From Syntrophobacterales bacterium (GTDB lineage: Bacteria; Desulfobacterota; Desulfobaccia; Desulfobaccales; 0-14-0-80-60-11): a stretch of 46,298 bases of DNA. Of this stretch, positions 25,695-46,190 are shown one piece after another. Within the stretch, counting starts at the first letter, position 1. Every line of letters starts with the position of its first letter. The notes below the pieces were generated by a model, which saw only the letters and a program-made list of their open reading frames with translations, was not told the DNA's origin and ran no database searches. Made by a program: the position numbers and the translations under genes. Location: contig JAGVAH010000136.1 of the NCBI GenBank assembly GCA_020060385.1, positions 1 through 46,298 of the forward strand, written 5' to 3'.

Positions 25695-28600
25695 ATGGCG
25701 TCAAAAAAGAACCGCGATAATACTTCCCGAAAAGGGCATCCCCGGAGCCCTCATGCCCCCGTCTCTCCCGGAGACCTGATGGGCCGCCTGCTGGCAGGGG
25801 AAGCTTCAGGCGACACGGATTCTCTCCTCCATAGTATTCTCGATCAAAGCCCTTACCCCATGTGGATTGCCGACTCCCAGGGCACCCTCATCTGGCTCAA
25901 TCAATCCTGCCGGGACTTGCTGCAACTCTCCGGGGAGGAGGTCATTGGCAAGTACAATGTCTTCCGGGATAATATCGTGGAAGAGCAGGGGCTTCAGCCC
26001 CTGCTGCGCCGGGTCCTCGAACAAGGCGAACGCGTAAGATTCGAGATCACCTATGACACCGCCCTGCTGAAGACTCTGCCCCTAACCACCCCCACTCTGG
26101 TAATTCTCGACGTCACTGTTTCTCCCATCCTCGATGATCGCGGCCAGGTGACCCATGCCATCTTTCAACACGTGGACATCACCGAACGCAAACGCGCGGA
26201 AACCGCGTTGGCGGAAAGCGAACAGCGCTTCAAAACCTTTATGGACCACCTGCCGGCTGCGGTCTTTATCAAAGACCGAGCGGACCGTCTGCTCTTTGCC
26301 AACCGCCACCTCCGGGAAATCTTCGGCTGGGATGATTGCCTGGGGAAATCCACCGCAGAGCTGGTGCCCCCGGAGCATGCGGCGCGCATGGTGGCCGATG
26401 ATCAGAGGGCCTTGGCTACCGGCTCCCTGGTCAGTCAGGAGAAAGTCACCGACGTCCAGGGCCGGGAACGCTTCTTCGACACCTACAAATTCCCGGTGGT
26501 GTCCGATGGCGCTCCCGTCTTACTGGGGGGCATTGCCGTGGATGTGACCGCGCGTAAAAGGGCGGAAGACGCGGTCCAGCAGAGCGAGCGGCGTTTCCGG
26601 GCATTGATCGAGAACAGTGCCGATGCCATCGTCCTCTTTGGGGAGGACGGAGCGACATTGTACGGCAGTCCGTCTTCCACCCGCGTGCTAGGCTACGATT
26701 TGCCGGAGTTTAGGCGGAGAAATGCGTTTTCTCTGGTCCATCCTGAGGACTTGCCGGCCTTTACCGCCCTTTTTGCCGATATCCTGCAACACCCAGGAGG
26801 GACGAGAAGTATTACCGCCCGCGTAATGCACCAGGACGGTTCCTGGCGCTATTTGGAGGCCAACCTTACCAACCTCCTGGCAGACCCCAGTGTGGAGGCC
26901 ATCGTTAACAACTACCGGGACGTCACCGAACGCAAGCTGGCGGAAGAAGCCCTGGAGTTGTCCGAAAAGAAATACCGCAGTTTTTACCGAAGCATCCTGG
27001 ATGGTTTCGGCAGAGTGGACATGACCGGCAAAATTGTGGAGACCAACCAGGGATTCCTGGACATGTTGGGTTACACCCAGGAAGAAATCCAGGAACTGCG
27101 CTACCAGGACATTACCCCCGTTAAGTGGCATGAGTTTGAAGCCGAGATTATCGAGGAACAGGTTCTCACCCGGGGTTACTCGGACACTTACGAAAAGGAA
27201 TATATCCGCAAGGATGGCATCATCTTCCCCGTGGAATTGAGGACCTACCTGGTGGAAGACGAAAGCGGCGCGCCCCAAGGCATGTGGGCCTTTATTAGGG
27301 ACATCACCGACCGCAAGCAGAATGAAGAGGCCCTGAAAAAAGAAAAATTGTTCACCGAAGCCATAGTGGACAGCCTTCCCGGCACTTTCTTTCTCCTTGA
27401 TTCCCAGGGCCGGCAATTGCGGACAAACAAGTCCGGACTGGCGGCTTCCGGATACTCCATAGAAGAGCTGACCCAGCTGCATGCCCTGGATTCCCTGGCT
27501 CAAGAGGATAGAGAGGCGGGTCAACGGGCTCTGGAAGAGGTCCTGACCAAAGGGGAAGCTTCCATGGAAGCGCAAATGCTTACCAAAGACGGCCGTAAAA
27601 TCCCCTACCTCTTTACCGCCAGAAAATTTCTCATTGACGATGTGCCCCATATCTTAGGAACCGGGCTGGATATCACCGCACTTAAGGAGTCGGAGGAGGC
27701 GCTCCAGGAGAGTGAGGAACGATTTCGTCATCTGGCCGCGGCCGCGTTTGAAGCCATCATTATTCATGAGAAAGGCATCATTGTCAGCGCCAACGACCAA
27801 TTCTATGAGATGTTCGGTTACGAACCCGAGGAACTGCTGGGAAAAGAGGCCTTGCCCTTGACCGTGGCCCCCGAAGCCATTGAGTCCATGAGGAAGAAGA
27901 TTGCCGCCGGCAGTCTGGAACCATACGAGTCCATCGGCCTGAAGAAAGACGGGACCAAGTTCCCCATGGAGATTCGGGCCCGGGAGATGGAATACAGAGG
28001 GCGAAAGGCCAGAGTGGCGGCCATCAGGGACATCACCGAGCGCCGGCGGGCGGAAGAGGCCCTGCGGGAGAGCGAGGAGCGCTACCGCAGCCTTTTCCAG
28101 AACAACCATGCGGTGATGCTCCTGATTAACCCGGAAACCGGGGCCATCGTGGATACCAACCCCGCAGCCCGCAACTTCTATGGCTACTCCCATGAAGAGC
28201 TGCTGACTAAAACCACCGCGGATCTCAACACCCTGCCCCCGGATCAAATCTTCCGGGCCATGCAGAAGGCTAAAGCGGAAAGACAGAAACATTTTCAATT
28301 CCAACATCGTCTGGCCAGTGGGGAAGTCCGGGATGTGGAGGTGTTCAGCGGCCCCATCCGCATTAAGGGCCAGGACCTGTTGTATTCCATCATCCACGAC
28401 GTCACCGCCCGGAAAAAGGCCCAAGAGGCGCTGCGGGAGAGTGAGAAAAGATTAAAAGAAGCCCAGGAATTGGCGCATTTGGGGTTCTGGTACTGGAATG
28501 TGAAGACGGGCGAGGTCACCTGGTCCGATGAAGTTTATAAAATCTTTCAACTGGATCCCCAAGAATTTACCCCCACCATCGATTCAATCCTGGAATTATC

Positions 28601-42673: not shown

Positions 42674-43990
42674 GTGACTGTCTTCCGAACCCTTATAGAT
42701 TCAGAGGCGGAGACATCACTTGCCCAGCTCATGTTTCCAGAAAGATTACTGCGCGTTGGGGCATTTTCCCTTCTTTTTTCCGTGGCCCTGGGAATTATGC
42801 TCTCTCCGGAAAACCTGGTGATCCTGGGACAACAATCCGGGGGGGCCGGGGCTACGGTTTTTCCCGGCCTGGCCCTCGCCGCGGCCATACATCTCTTTAC
42901 CGCCGGCACCTATAACCGCGATTCAGACTTTTTCGCCGCATCCGGGGGAGGGACGCACCTACCCAAAATTTTCCGACCCCCCCTGGCAGTGGCTCTATCC
43001 CTGGCTTCCCGGGGCGGTTTCGCCCTCTGGGGCACCACTGCCGTCCTCATTACCGCGGGCTACGTTTTTAACGAAACATTTATGCCCGCGTACCCCAATT
43101 TGGGTTTTTCCTTCACCCTGTTGGCACTGCTCATGGTTCTTAACCTTTTGGGGAGCCGCTGGGCCGGTGTCTTCCAGGTGGTATTTGTGGGTGCGGCTCT
43201 GGCGGGCCTGGTGGCATTAGTGGTGTTGGGGCTCCTGGGCTCCCCCCCTAATCTTCAACCCTCACCGGCCGGCGATTTGACCTGGAAGCAAGGTCTTTCC
43301 CCCATCCCCCTTCTTTTCCTTCCCTTTATCGGTTATGAACTCTCCTCCTTTTTGAAGGAAAAAATCCCAGGGTACGCTCTAAGTCCGGCAGCGCCGATGC
43401 TGGCCGGGATTATGGCCGCGTTCTGCCTTTTTTTCTTATGGTGTTTCATCTCCCGTAATTACGTGCCCGGCCTCAAGCTCCAGGAATCCACGGTGCCATA
43501 TGCCTACGTCGCCCGGGCCGTTGCCGGCGAAAGGGGCACACAGCTCATGGGGATCGTTTTGCTGGCAGGGTCCCTGGCCACAGCCAATGCCCTGCTCCTG
43601 GCCGTGCCTTTAATGGCCTCCGGCCTGCCGCCTGCGGGACTATGGCCGCTTATCCTCAGGGGCCGGGTCTTTAACCTCCTCTTATTAGTGGGGGCCGTTG
43701 CCCTGGTTATGGCCCTGGGCCTGGGGGGCAGCCCCAGCCTGCCCTCTTTTTTGAAAGCCAGCGTTCTCCTCTGGCTATTGGCTTATGCCTGGCATAACCT
43801 GGCTATCTGGCGGGAGAAGGGGCGAGGGGCGGCAATCGCCAACCTCTGCGCCTTGGCGCTGGTGGCCGCGGTGGTTCTGGCCCTGATAACCGATTCGGAA
43901 AGGGTAGTACTGGGAATCTACATGCTCCTGGTGGTGGGGGCTCTGGCCCTTTTCGGGTCCATACCTTATGGCGAGGGGAATTTGCATTAA
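42674..43990 (+). CDS. APC-superfamily-like permease
   Basis: A 438-residue integral membrane protein with about 12 hydrophobic helices. SLLFSVALGIMLSPENLVIL at the first helix, IPLLFLPFIGYELSSFLKEK in the middle and TVPYAYVARAVAGERGTQLM with GIVLLAGSLATANALLLAVP later resemble amino acid/polyamine/organocation transporters. The substrate is unknown. The start is uncertain: GTG 42674 keeps the longest frame but lacks a clear ribosome site, and ATG 42731 (MFPERLLRVGAF) is a good alternative just before helix 1. It ends 44 bp before the rhodanese gene and is probably co-transcribed with it. Confidence 0.75.
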   Translation: MTVFRTLIDSEAETSLAQLMFPERLLRVGAFSLLFSVALGIMLSPENLVILGQQSGGAGATVFPGLALAAAIHLFTAGTYNRDSDFFAASGGGTHLPKIFRPPLAVALSLASRGGFALWGTTAVLITAGYVFNETFMPAYPNLGFSFTLLALLMVLNLLGSRWAGVFQVVFVGAALAGLVALVVLGLLGSPPNLQPSPAGDLTWKQGLSPIPLLFLPFIGYELSSFLKEKIPGYALSPAAPMLAGIMAAFCLFFLWCFISRNYVPGLKLQESTVPYAYVARAVAGERGTQLMGIVLLAGSLATANALLLAVPLMASGLPPAGLWPLILRGRVFNLLLLVGAVALVMALGLGGSPSLPSFLKASVLLWLLAYAWHNLAIWREKGRGAAIANLCALALVAAVVLALITDSERVVLGIYMLLVVGALALFGSIPYGEGNLH

Positions 43991-44034
43991 TCAAGGGTTT
44001 GCCTCAAAAACTGTCACTTAAGGAGGGAGGCTCC

Positions 44035-44457
44035 ATGGATCATCAACCCAGTATATGGAAGGTGCTCATCGTAAACTGTATTGTGGCGGCTTTTTTAGCC
44101 ACAGGGACCGGCGTCGCGGCCGGGGCCAAAGAAGTCCCTTTGATCTCAAAAGAAGATCTCAAACCGGGATTGGACGCGGCAAGCCTGATCATCATCGACG
44201 TGCGCTCCGGCAAGGACTGGAATGCCAGCCAAAAGAAGATTAAGGGCGCGGTCCGGGAAGATCCGGAGAAGGTGGAGGCCTGGGCCAAGAAGTATAAATC
44301 CCAGCAGGATATTGTCTTGTACTGCGCCTGACCCAACGAGTGGACCAGCTCCCGGGTGGGGCGCCAACTCATGGATCTGGGGTTCACCCAGGTTTCCGTC
44401 TTAAAAGGCGGCTGGCACGAATGGTTCCGGGCCGGGTATCCCACGGATGATAAGTGA
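44035..44457 (+). CDS. Periplasmic rhodanese-like protein with in-frame TGA, probable selenoprotein
   Basis: A 140-residue product if TGA at 44329-44331 is read as selenocysteine (residue 99); otherwise it ends after 98 residues. ATG 44035 has AAGGAGGGAGG upstream. A signal peptide (IVNCIVAAFLATGTGVAAGA) directs export. The rhodanese fold follows: SLIIIDVRSGKDW, KIKGAVRE, DIVLYCA-TGA-PNEWTSSR, then GRQLMDLGFTQVSVLKGGWH and EWFRAGYP. In cysteine relatives this loop reads YC[AS]CPNE.TSAR, so TGA sits exactly where Cys is expected. The frame after TGA stays conserved for 41 codons, arguing against a plain stop. A stem-loop suits a bacterial SECIS. Such proteins may move sulfur or act in redox; the Cys-Ala-Sec pair favours a redox or sulfur-transfer role (inference). 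Confidence 0.82.
44338..44370 (+). promoter_or_regulatory. Candidate bacterial SECIS element after the rhodanese TGA
   Basis: GAGTGG (44338-44343) pairs with CCAACTC (44364-44370, one bulged A). An internal loop separates it from GCTCC (44348-44352) pairing with GGGGC (44358-44362), capped by the loop CGGGT with G in second position. The loop starts 21 nt after the TGA, within the usual 16-37 nt. Alternative foldings exist. Confidence 0.55.
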
Positions 44458-44594: not shown

Positions 44595-44675
44595 ATGCGA
44601 ACCGGACTTTATGTGTTCTTTATGGCTGTCGGGCTCTTTCTGGCCCTGGTTTGCGGTTGAAGCTCCATCATCTGA
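44595..44675 (+). CDS. Tiny hydrophobic ORF with in-frame TGA, possible selenopeptide or small membrane peptide
   Basis: AAAGGAGGGTAGCC, one of the best ribosome sites in the window, precedes ATG 44595. The frame encodes 21 mostly hydrophobic residues (MRTGLYVFFMAVGLF ... LVCG) and reaches TGA at 44658-44660, then SSII and a second TGA at 44673-44675. With Cys or Sec at the first TGA the end would read VCG-X-SSII, like a small lipoprotein signal. A perfect hairpin follows at SECIS-like spacing. If TGA is a stop, the product is a 21-residue membrane peptide ending at 44660. It lies 137 bp after the rhodanese. Confidence 0.4.
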
Positions 44676-44689
44676 GTCAGGTTGACTCA
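44673..44689 (+). promoter_or_regulatory. Perfect hairpin at SECIS-like spacing after the tiny ORF's TGA
   Basis: TGAGTCA and TGACTCA form a 7-bp stem with a GGT loop. The loop begins 19 nt after the TGA at 44658 and starts with G, as bacterial SECIS loops do. It could equally be an operator or a repeat. Confidence 0.35.
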
Positions 44690-44765: not shown

Positions 44766-46190
44766 ATGCGTATTCTACTATTAGCCATGCCGGACACCGC
44801 CGACGTCATCGATTACTTCGGCAAGCTCCCCAACCTGGGGCTAGTTAACCTGGCCGGCAACCTCCCGGGCCACGAAGTGCAGGTCCTGGATCTGGTGCTC
44901 TATAAACCCCGCATCCGCGTCCTTTTGGAAAGAGTCCTGGCCGATTTCCGGCCGGAGATCGTGGGCCTGTCGGCCATGACCTTCCAGTTTGACACCCTCC
45001 TTAGGGTAGCCCGCTTCCTTAAGGGCCGGGACCCGGCCCTCAAACTGGCGGCCGGGGGCTACCACGCCACCCTCATGGCCCGGAAGCTCGCGGCCGGGGG
45101 CCCGGACCTGCCCCTGGACTTCCTGATCCGGGGGGAAGGGGAAGCCACCTTCCGGGAGTTGGTGGACGATTTGGGAAACCCCAACCTGGACATGGCCAGC
45201 ATTTCAGGGCTCAGCTACCGCCGGGGGACGACCTGGCTCCATAATCCCGACCGCCCGCTCCTGGATCTGGCCGCGCTGCCCCTGCCCCGGCGGGAGGTCC
45301 GGCGGGACCAAGATTTCTTTTTCTTCGATCAGTCCATCGACGTGGTGGAGACCTCCCGGGGTTGCCCCCACGATTGTAAGTTCTGTTCCATCACCGGCAT
45401 GTACGGCCGCACCTTCCGCCCTTTCCCCCTGGAGCGCATCCTGGCGGACCTGCGGGCCGTCCGCAGCCGGGGAGCGAGCGCCGTCTTTATTGCCGATGAC
45501 AACCTCACCTTTGACATCGGCCATTTCCGGAGACTCTGCCGGGCCATTGTGGAACACGGTCTTAACGACCTGCGCTATGCCACCCAGGCTGCGGCGGTGG
45601 GGCTGGCCTGCCACCCGGAATTGGTGGCGGAAATGAAGCAGGCCAACTTCTGGATGGTCTTTGTGGGCTTTGAGTCCATGTCCGCAGCCAATCTCCGGGG
45701 GATGGGCAAGCCCACCAGCCCGGAAATCAACCGCCGGGCCGCAGCCTTGCTGCGGCGGCACGATATGGGCCTCATCGCCGGGGTGATCTTCGGCTACCCG
45801 GAGGACACCAGGGCCTCCATCAACCGGAATTACCGGCTGATGAAGCAAATGCGGCCGGACCTCATCTACTCCCAATACCTGACGCCCTATCCCGGCACCC
45901 GCCTGCGCCGGGAAATGCTGGCGGCCGGTCTGGTGGCCAATGCCGAGGACTTTCGCACTTATGACGGCTTCCACTGTAACGTCCGCACCCGGGCCCTGGG
46001 CCAGGCCACCCTCTACCAGAGCCTGAAACGGGAGTCCCTGAAAAGCTATTTCGACCCCTCCCTGTATGCGCGCAACTTTTTCCTCCGTCATAACCCCCTA
46101 GCCTTCTTCCGGGCCATCGCCAGGGCCATGCTCTCCATCCTGGCCATGGTCCTTAAGGGCCGCCAACCCGCACAAAAGCTGGATATCTGA
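44766..46190 (+). CDS. B12-binding-type radical SAM protein
   Basis: A 474-residue protein. The N-terminal 170 residues form a cobalamin-binding-like Rossmann domain (GLVNLAGNLPGHEVQVLDLV, EIVGLSAMTFQFDTLLRVA, LKLAAGGYHATLMARKL, FLIRGEGEATFRELVDDL). The radical SAM core follows, with CPHDCKFC (Cys200, Cys204, Cys207) binding the 4Fe-4S cluster that cleaves SAM; FIADDNLTFD and GVIFGYPEDT are typical later strands. A C-terminal helical region ends with a hydrophobic stretch (FFRAIARAMLSILAMVLK). Family members methylate unreactive carbons or build tetrapyrroles, lipids and natural products; the substrate here is unknown. No DxHxxG base-off motif is visible. Confidence 0.9.
   Translation: MRILLLAMPDTADVIDYFGKLPNLGLVNLAGNLPGHEVQVLDLVLYKPRIRVLLERVLADFRPEIVGLSAMTFQFDTLLRVARFLKGRDPALKLAAGGYHATLMARKLAAGGPDLPLDFLIRGEGEATFRELVDDLGNPNLDMASISGLSYRRGTTWLHNPDRPLLDLAALPLPRREVRRDQDFFFFDQSIDVVETSRGCPHDCKFCSITGMYGRTFRPFPLERILADLRAVRSRGASAVFIADDNLTFDIGHFRRLCRAIVEHGLNDLRYATQAAAVGLACHPELVAEMKQANFWMVFVGFESMSAANLRGMGKPTSPEINRRAAALLRRHDMGLIAGVIFGYPEDTRASINRNYRLMKQMRPDLIYSQYLTPYPGTRLRREMLAAGLVANAEDFRTYDGFHCNVRTRALGQATLYQSLKRESLKSYFDPSLYARNFFLRHNPLAFFRAIARAMLSILAMVLKGRQPAQKLDI

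Follow-up and report, generated by a model that had tools for sequence, protein, structure and literature searches.

A probable selenocysteine-containing periplasmic rhodanese and its conserved upstream permease in a Syntrophobacterales bacterium

Introduction

A rhodanese gene in the genome of a Syntrophobacterales bacterium meets an in-frame TGA at codon 99 and continues beyond it, which raises the question of whether this codon ends the protein or is read as selenocysteine (Sec), and what the full-length protein might do. The window considered here is the whole stretch of 46,298 nucleotides in which the gene lies. A preliminary description proposed a selenoprotein that an ordinary gene caller would stop at 98 residues, and the list of open reading frames does give the truncated frame only. 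That description offered the proposal as new, whereas the family had been catalogued before: NCBIfam NF041203 describes a “rhodanese-related (seleno)protein” with the motif LYCAU, in a 2022 review it appears under COG0607 as form 2 with the motif CxU (PMC9312934), and in a 2026 review NF041203 is rhodanese form 3, again with CxU (PMC13188914), the two reviews naming the same example protein. From the family model and these listings it follows that the LYCAU family is a known selenoprotein family whose status was predicted computationally. What is new is the dedicated APC-type permease encoded upstream.

Results

Reading frame and family

With the TGA translated as Sec, the gene encodes MDHQPSIWK...DIVLYCA-U-PNEWTSSRVGRQLMDLGFTQVSVLKGGWHEWFRAGYPTDDK-stop, preceded by a strong Shine-Dalgarno stretch (Table 1). 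Translation bears out the description of a TGA at codon 99 followed by 41 further codons, with a second TGA closing the frame. The residues around position 99, VLYCAUPNEW, contain the LYCA motif followed by Sec, which lies at +2 of the first Cys. The read-through product scores 165.3 bits against NF041203 (cut-off 115; model positions 7–126 of 126) and 50.5 bits against Pfam Rhodanese, the latter match extending through residue 132. Its N-terminus is hydrophobic and signal-like, and 41 of 46 scored family sequences likewise have a hydrophobic stretch at the N-terminus, as would fit export. Comparison thus strongly supports a predicted secreted (periplasmic) single-domain rhodanese, which resembles NF041203 members in its score over the cut-off, LYCAU motif, CxU, export signal, length and phylum, and differs from them in nothing essential.

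Table 1. Features of the Sec-rhodanese locus (window coordinates)
Feature	Position	Strand	Basis
Diverged permease of the APC superfamily, conserved partner upstream of the Sec-rhodanese	42674..43990	+	all 12 matches directly precede a LYCAU gene; fold resembles AdiC, TM 0.76
Shine-Dalgarno-like stretch cttaaggagggaggctcc, ahead of ATG 44035	44017..44034	+	read from sequence
Predicted Sec-containing periplasmic rhodanese, LYCAU family NF041203	44035..44457	+	140 aa with Sec99; profile scores, signal-like N-terminus
TGC, Cys97, aligned with the canonical rhodanese catalytic Cys	44323..44325	+	alignment to YnjE domain 3, FYCG-TGWRAS
TGA, predicted Sec99 codon	44329..44331	+	same codon TGA in 48 distinct family sequences
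Putative bSECIS-type apical hairpin GCUCC-CGGGU-GGGGC	44348..44362	+	pairing in 98.8% of cells, 22 compensatory cells, loop G in 48/48
TGA, true stop of the Sec-rhodanese gene	44455..44457	+	read from sequence

The closest named relative comes from a Syntrophales MAG (69% identity), and a search of plasmid records returned rhodaneses below 36% identity only. All matches over the NF041203 cut-off in 29 genomes of the class have an in-frame TGA; across the phylum (395 genomes) 75 of 84 do, the remaining nine comprising eight with no stop at all and one with TAA. When the 48 distinct Sec forms were read residue by residue, the TGA fell at the identical codon in all, and 47 of them run on for 41–52 residues to a stop, so relatives do not end at the TGA codon. 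Recurrence of TGA at this same codon across many independent genomes excludes a sequencing error for TGC. Cys homologues, which the preliminary description suggested looking for, were found as YCSC (L088, L089), giving the expected pair of Sec and Cys forms; other non-Sec forms read YCAS, YCSS, YCSA and YSGS. The Ser and Ala forms imply that some members can do without Sec at this position. Five sequences (L067, L073, L077, L087 and L099) read YUxU, a second TGA replacing the canonical catalytic Cys, and would be double-Sec rhodaneses.

A hairpin conserved with the codon

The two-helix stem-loop of the preliminary description was recovered in every detail: an outer GAGU/ACUC helix starts 6 nt past the TGA, the apical stem starts 16 nt past it and the loop at 21 nt, with G at loop position 2. 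A hairpin just downstream of the UGA, with a small apical loop and G within its first two positions, is the form of a bSECIS. By itself, the window hairpin folds no better than dinucleotide shuffles of it (z about +0.5), all five pairs survive in about 2% of synonymous recodings, and an Rfam scan of the window at gathering thresholds gave nothing. Single-sequence folding, being not significant, was dropped as SECIS evidence in favour of comparison with relatives.

Across the 48 Sec forms, 237 of 240 possible pairs of the five-pair stem are formed, compared to 144 ± 6 when codons were exchanged for synonymous ones, where 300 trials reached at most 164. The 22 compensatory cells fall at three pairs, a result reached by none of 500 shuffles. 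Covariation amounts to 0.293 against 0.135, covariation control (a) leaving the relatedness of the sequences in; the stronger arguments are the synonymous-codon null and the slid controls, in which 0 to 5 compensatory cells remained once the partner was shifted 1–3 columns. Owing to this comparison with relatives, the hairpin 16–30 nt downstream of the UGA can be assigned as SECIS-type, conserved and covarying far more than chance would allow. Most relatives have GUGCC/GGCAC where the window has GCUCC/GGGGC; the amino acids shift along, from SA...VA to SS...VG, and the stem remains paired. Forms with Cys, Ser or Ala number nine, and eight of them retain one to three of the five pairs. The Ser form L090 (reverse strand), with TCA at the Sec position, keeps 5/5 pairs and is likely a relic of recent Sec loss via TGA to TCA.

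Selenocysteine machinery

The genome (4.15 Mb, 99.95% complete) encodes the whole set expected for a bacterial selenoprotein, selA, selB, selC and selD, as the preliminary description had proposed to check. The proteins score well over their cut-offs (selA 597 bits, cut-off 268; selB 364 bits, cut-off 242; selD 377 bits, cut-off 125), and selD itself contains an in-frame TGA. Two tRNA-Sec matches have the identical score of 78.3 bits and the anticodon TCA, each at a contig end (contig C30 of the genome, G000, 27215–27308, and contig C134, 25843–25936); they are probably one locus split or duplicated by the assembly. Co-occurrence with selA is uninformative, because 354 of the 395 genomes carry selA.

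A permease found beside the Sec-rhodanese

Pfam and NCBIfam gave no match at E≤1 for the protein encoded upstream. In eleven further loci that we examined, its homologues (about 31–62% identity) are likewise encoded upstream of a Sec-rhodanese. We built a profile from nine of these permeases, all from rhodanese-adjacent genes, and searched the 395 genomes at E≤1e-40. The subfamily occurs in 12 of them, spanning eleven genera and ten families of the phylum; every match immediately precedes a LYCAU Sec-rhodanese encoded on the same strand, 63–524 nt separating the profile matches, and no unlinked copy was found at this threshold in the 395 genomes. Since the profile derives from adjacent genes, the informative points are the lack of an unlinked copy and the gene order kept across diverged families. 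Most family genomes do without the permease, which is present in 12 compared to 61 with an over-cut-off rhodanese.

An alignment-based model (pLDDT 81.5) has an APC-type fold, with TM scores of 0.76 to AdiC and 0.68 to ApcT, and supersedes a single-sequence model that was useless (pLDDT 46). The profile also matches ApcT (E 1e-10), and fold and profile agree on the APC superfamily. Although the fold is alike, identity to ApcT and AdiC is only about 15%, and unlike them the window permease is found, at E≤1e-40, only beside LYCAU rhodaneses. Our literature search returned no paper joining selenoprotein, rhodanese and amino acid permease. We consider a functional link between the two proteins likely. 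The pairing in the window genome and eleven others suggests that the Sec-rhodanese probably handles the solute of the permease, processing or acting on a sulfur-containing amino acid or something similar.

Active site and sister rhodaneses

The preliminary description stated that Sec usually replaces a catalytic Cys. For this protein the statement has to be modified: the usual catalytic Cys is kept as C97, which aligns with the active-site-loop Cys of solved rhodaneses, and Sec stands at +2. The loop is two residues longer than in the solved structures, and within it Sec99 would be a second redox residue forming CxU with C97.

Decoding of UGA codon 99 by SelB and tRNA-Sec, under the direction of the downstream hairpin, has strong comparative support. 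In the chemistry that we consider likeliest, Cys97 would take sulfane sulfur off a substrate, and Sec99 would then attack the sulfur on Cys97, releasing sulfide or handing the sulfur on, with formation of a Cys-Sec selenenylsulfide. A periplasmic thiol reductase would reset the pair, for which the TsoB-type rhodanese/DsbD fusion selenoprotein of the same genome is a candidate. We lean slightly towards this sulfurtransfer chemistry of Cys97 and Sec99. Our literature search found no report of a substrate, persulfide or selenenylsulfide for the LYCAU family.

The TsoB-type fusion (L101, contig C157 of the same genome, 749–2968, reverse strand; 976 bits to NF045694, cut-off 805) has two in-frame TGA codons in YUAGLAU. 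It shares a Sec-containing rhodanese domain with the window protein, which is a single rhodanese domain with one Sec, whereas TsoB is a fusion with two. The window protein itself was rejected as a TsoB, as it scores 24.9 bits against the cut-off of 805 and consists of a rhodanese domain only, with no DsbD fusion. A third Sec-rhodanese of this genome (L100, contig C120, 390–719) encodes 109 residues with YCAU, no signal peptide and the same SECIS hairpin, and scores 69.7 bits against NF041203, below the cut-off. Its cytosolic-looking sister group also occurs at L033, L034 and L035.

A tiny ORF and a radical SAM neighbour

Downstream of the rhodanese lies a tiny ORF (44595–44675) that has a Shine-Dalgarno sequence and reads MRTGLYVFFMAVGLFLALVCG-TGA-SSII-TGA, in which VCG-(TGA) fits a lipobox. 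Its first TGA (44658–44660) is followed after 12 nt (15 nt in the copy L110) by a perfect 7-bp hairpin, TGAGTCA-GGT-TGACTCA (44673–44689). A stem as good at that distance follows 0.65% of the TGAs in the window, and a competing fold is predicted to be more stable. Copies are found at L109 (1502–1599, reverse strand) and L110 (1502–1602, reverse strand), the latter the same as L052 (3437–3537). In the three genomes of the genus that have it, changes before the TGA are synonymous, the sequence after it is nearly identical, and a 3-nt indel preserves the frame; one genome keeps the ORF without an adjoining rhodanese. No Cys form of the tiny ORF was found.

A wider distribution was considered and rejected, as a covariance model run on the 395 genomes gave real matches only in the window and in the same-genus genome G018; three weak distant matches without the TGA/lipobox anatomy were taken as chance. 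The third genome, G013, came from a DNA search. The next gene (44766–46190) encodes a B12-binding radical SAM protein that scores below every NCBIfam cut-off. The tiny ORF precedes it in each of the three genomes where both occur, and is absent upstream of two more distant radical-SAM homologues, one of them with just 124 nt of upstream sequence. Both a selenolipopeptide and a leader peptide are candidates for its product.

Discussion

The evidence bears on what the TGA at codon 99 does and on what the resulting protein does. If the TGA were an ordinary stop, the gene would encode a 98-residue rhodanese, truncated or in decay; a standard gene caller does end it there, and the energetically unremarkable single hairpin agrees with that. 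Against this, 48 distinct sequences share the TGA, followed by a conserved C-terminal block and a normal stop some 41 codons on, the SECIS hairpin covaries, and the short form would lack the C-terminal third of a domain that Pfam matches through residue 132; we regard an ordinary stop as very improbable. The YCSC forms among relatives might instead suggest a sense codon, the TGA being either read as Trp, Cys or Gly under an alternative code or a sequencing or assembly error for TGC. Yet the Sec-rhodanese gene and its neighbours themselves terminate in TGA, TGA recurs in relatives from many independent assemblies, the genome has a complete Sec system, and the hairpin is lost in Cys forms, all of which leaves this explanation scarcely credible. 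The preliminary description had named three things that would speak against a selenoprotein, namely a genome lacking Sec machinery, a TGC behind the TGA, and homologues all ending here; none of them does so, and its selenoprotein reading is supported. We conclude that UGA codon 99 is almost certainly read as selenocysteine, as judged by comparative sequence analysis.

Granted that Sec99 is used, the protein might still be a general peroxide or thiol-disulfide oxidoreductase that retains the rhodanese fold as a scaffold. The CxU motif does resemble redox motifs, solved sulfurtransferases have a shorter loop, and the name of NF041203 commits to no activity. On the other hand, almost all Sec forms retain C97 or have Sec in its place, as in the YUxU sequences, which suggests that the sulfur-accepting site is in use. 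We thus consider a general oxidoreductase rather unlikely.

The locus could also be part of a larger selenium-dependent module, in which the dedicated APC permease and the periplasmic Sec-rhodanese would be joined, within the genus, by a lipopeptide of 26–27 residues that has UGA at the Cys codon of its lipobox and a SECIS-like hairpin of its own. We hold this to be quite doubtful. No earlier case of Sec in a lipobox is known to us; if true, the module would place selenocysteine at a lipidation site.

For the family as a whole, the analysis corrects a gene truncated by standard annotation, and offers a clean case in which protein and RNA constraints act on the same codons. The probable link to the permease would give a concrete handle on the function of this selenoprotein family, as it predicts a solute.
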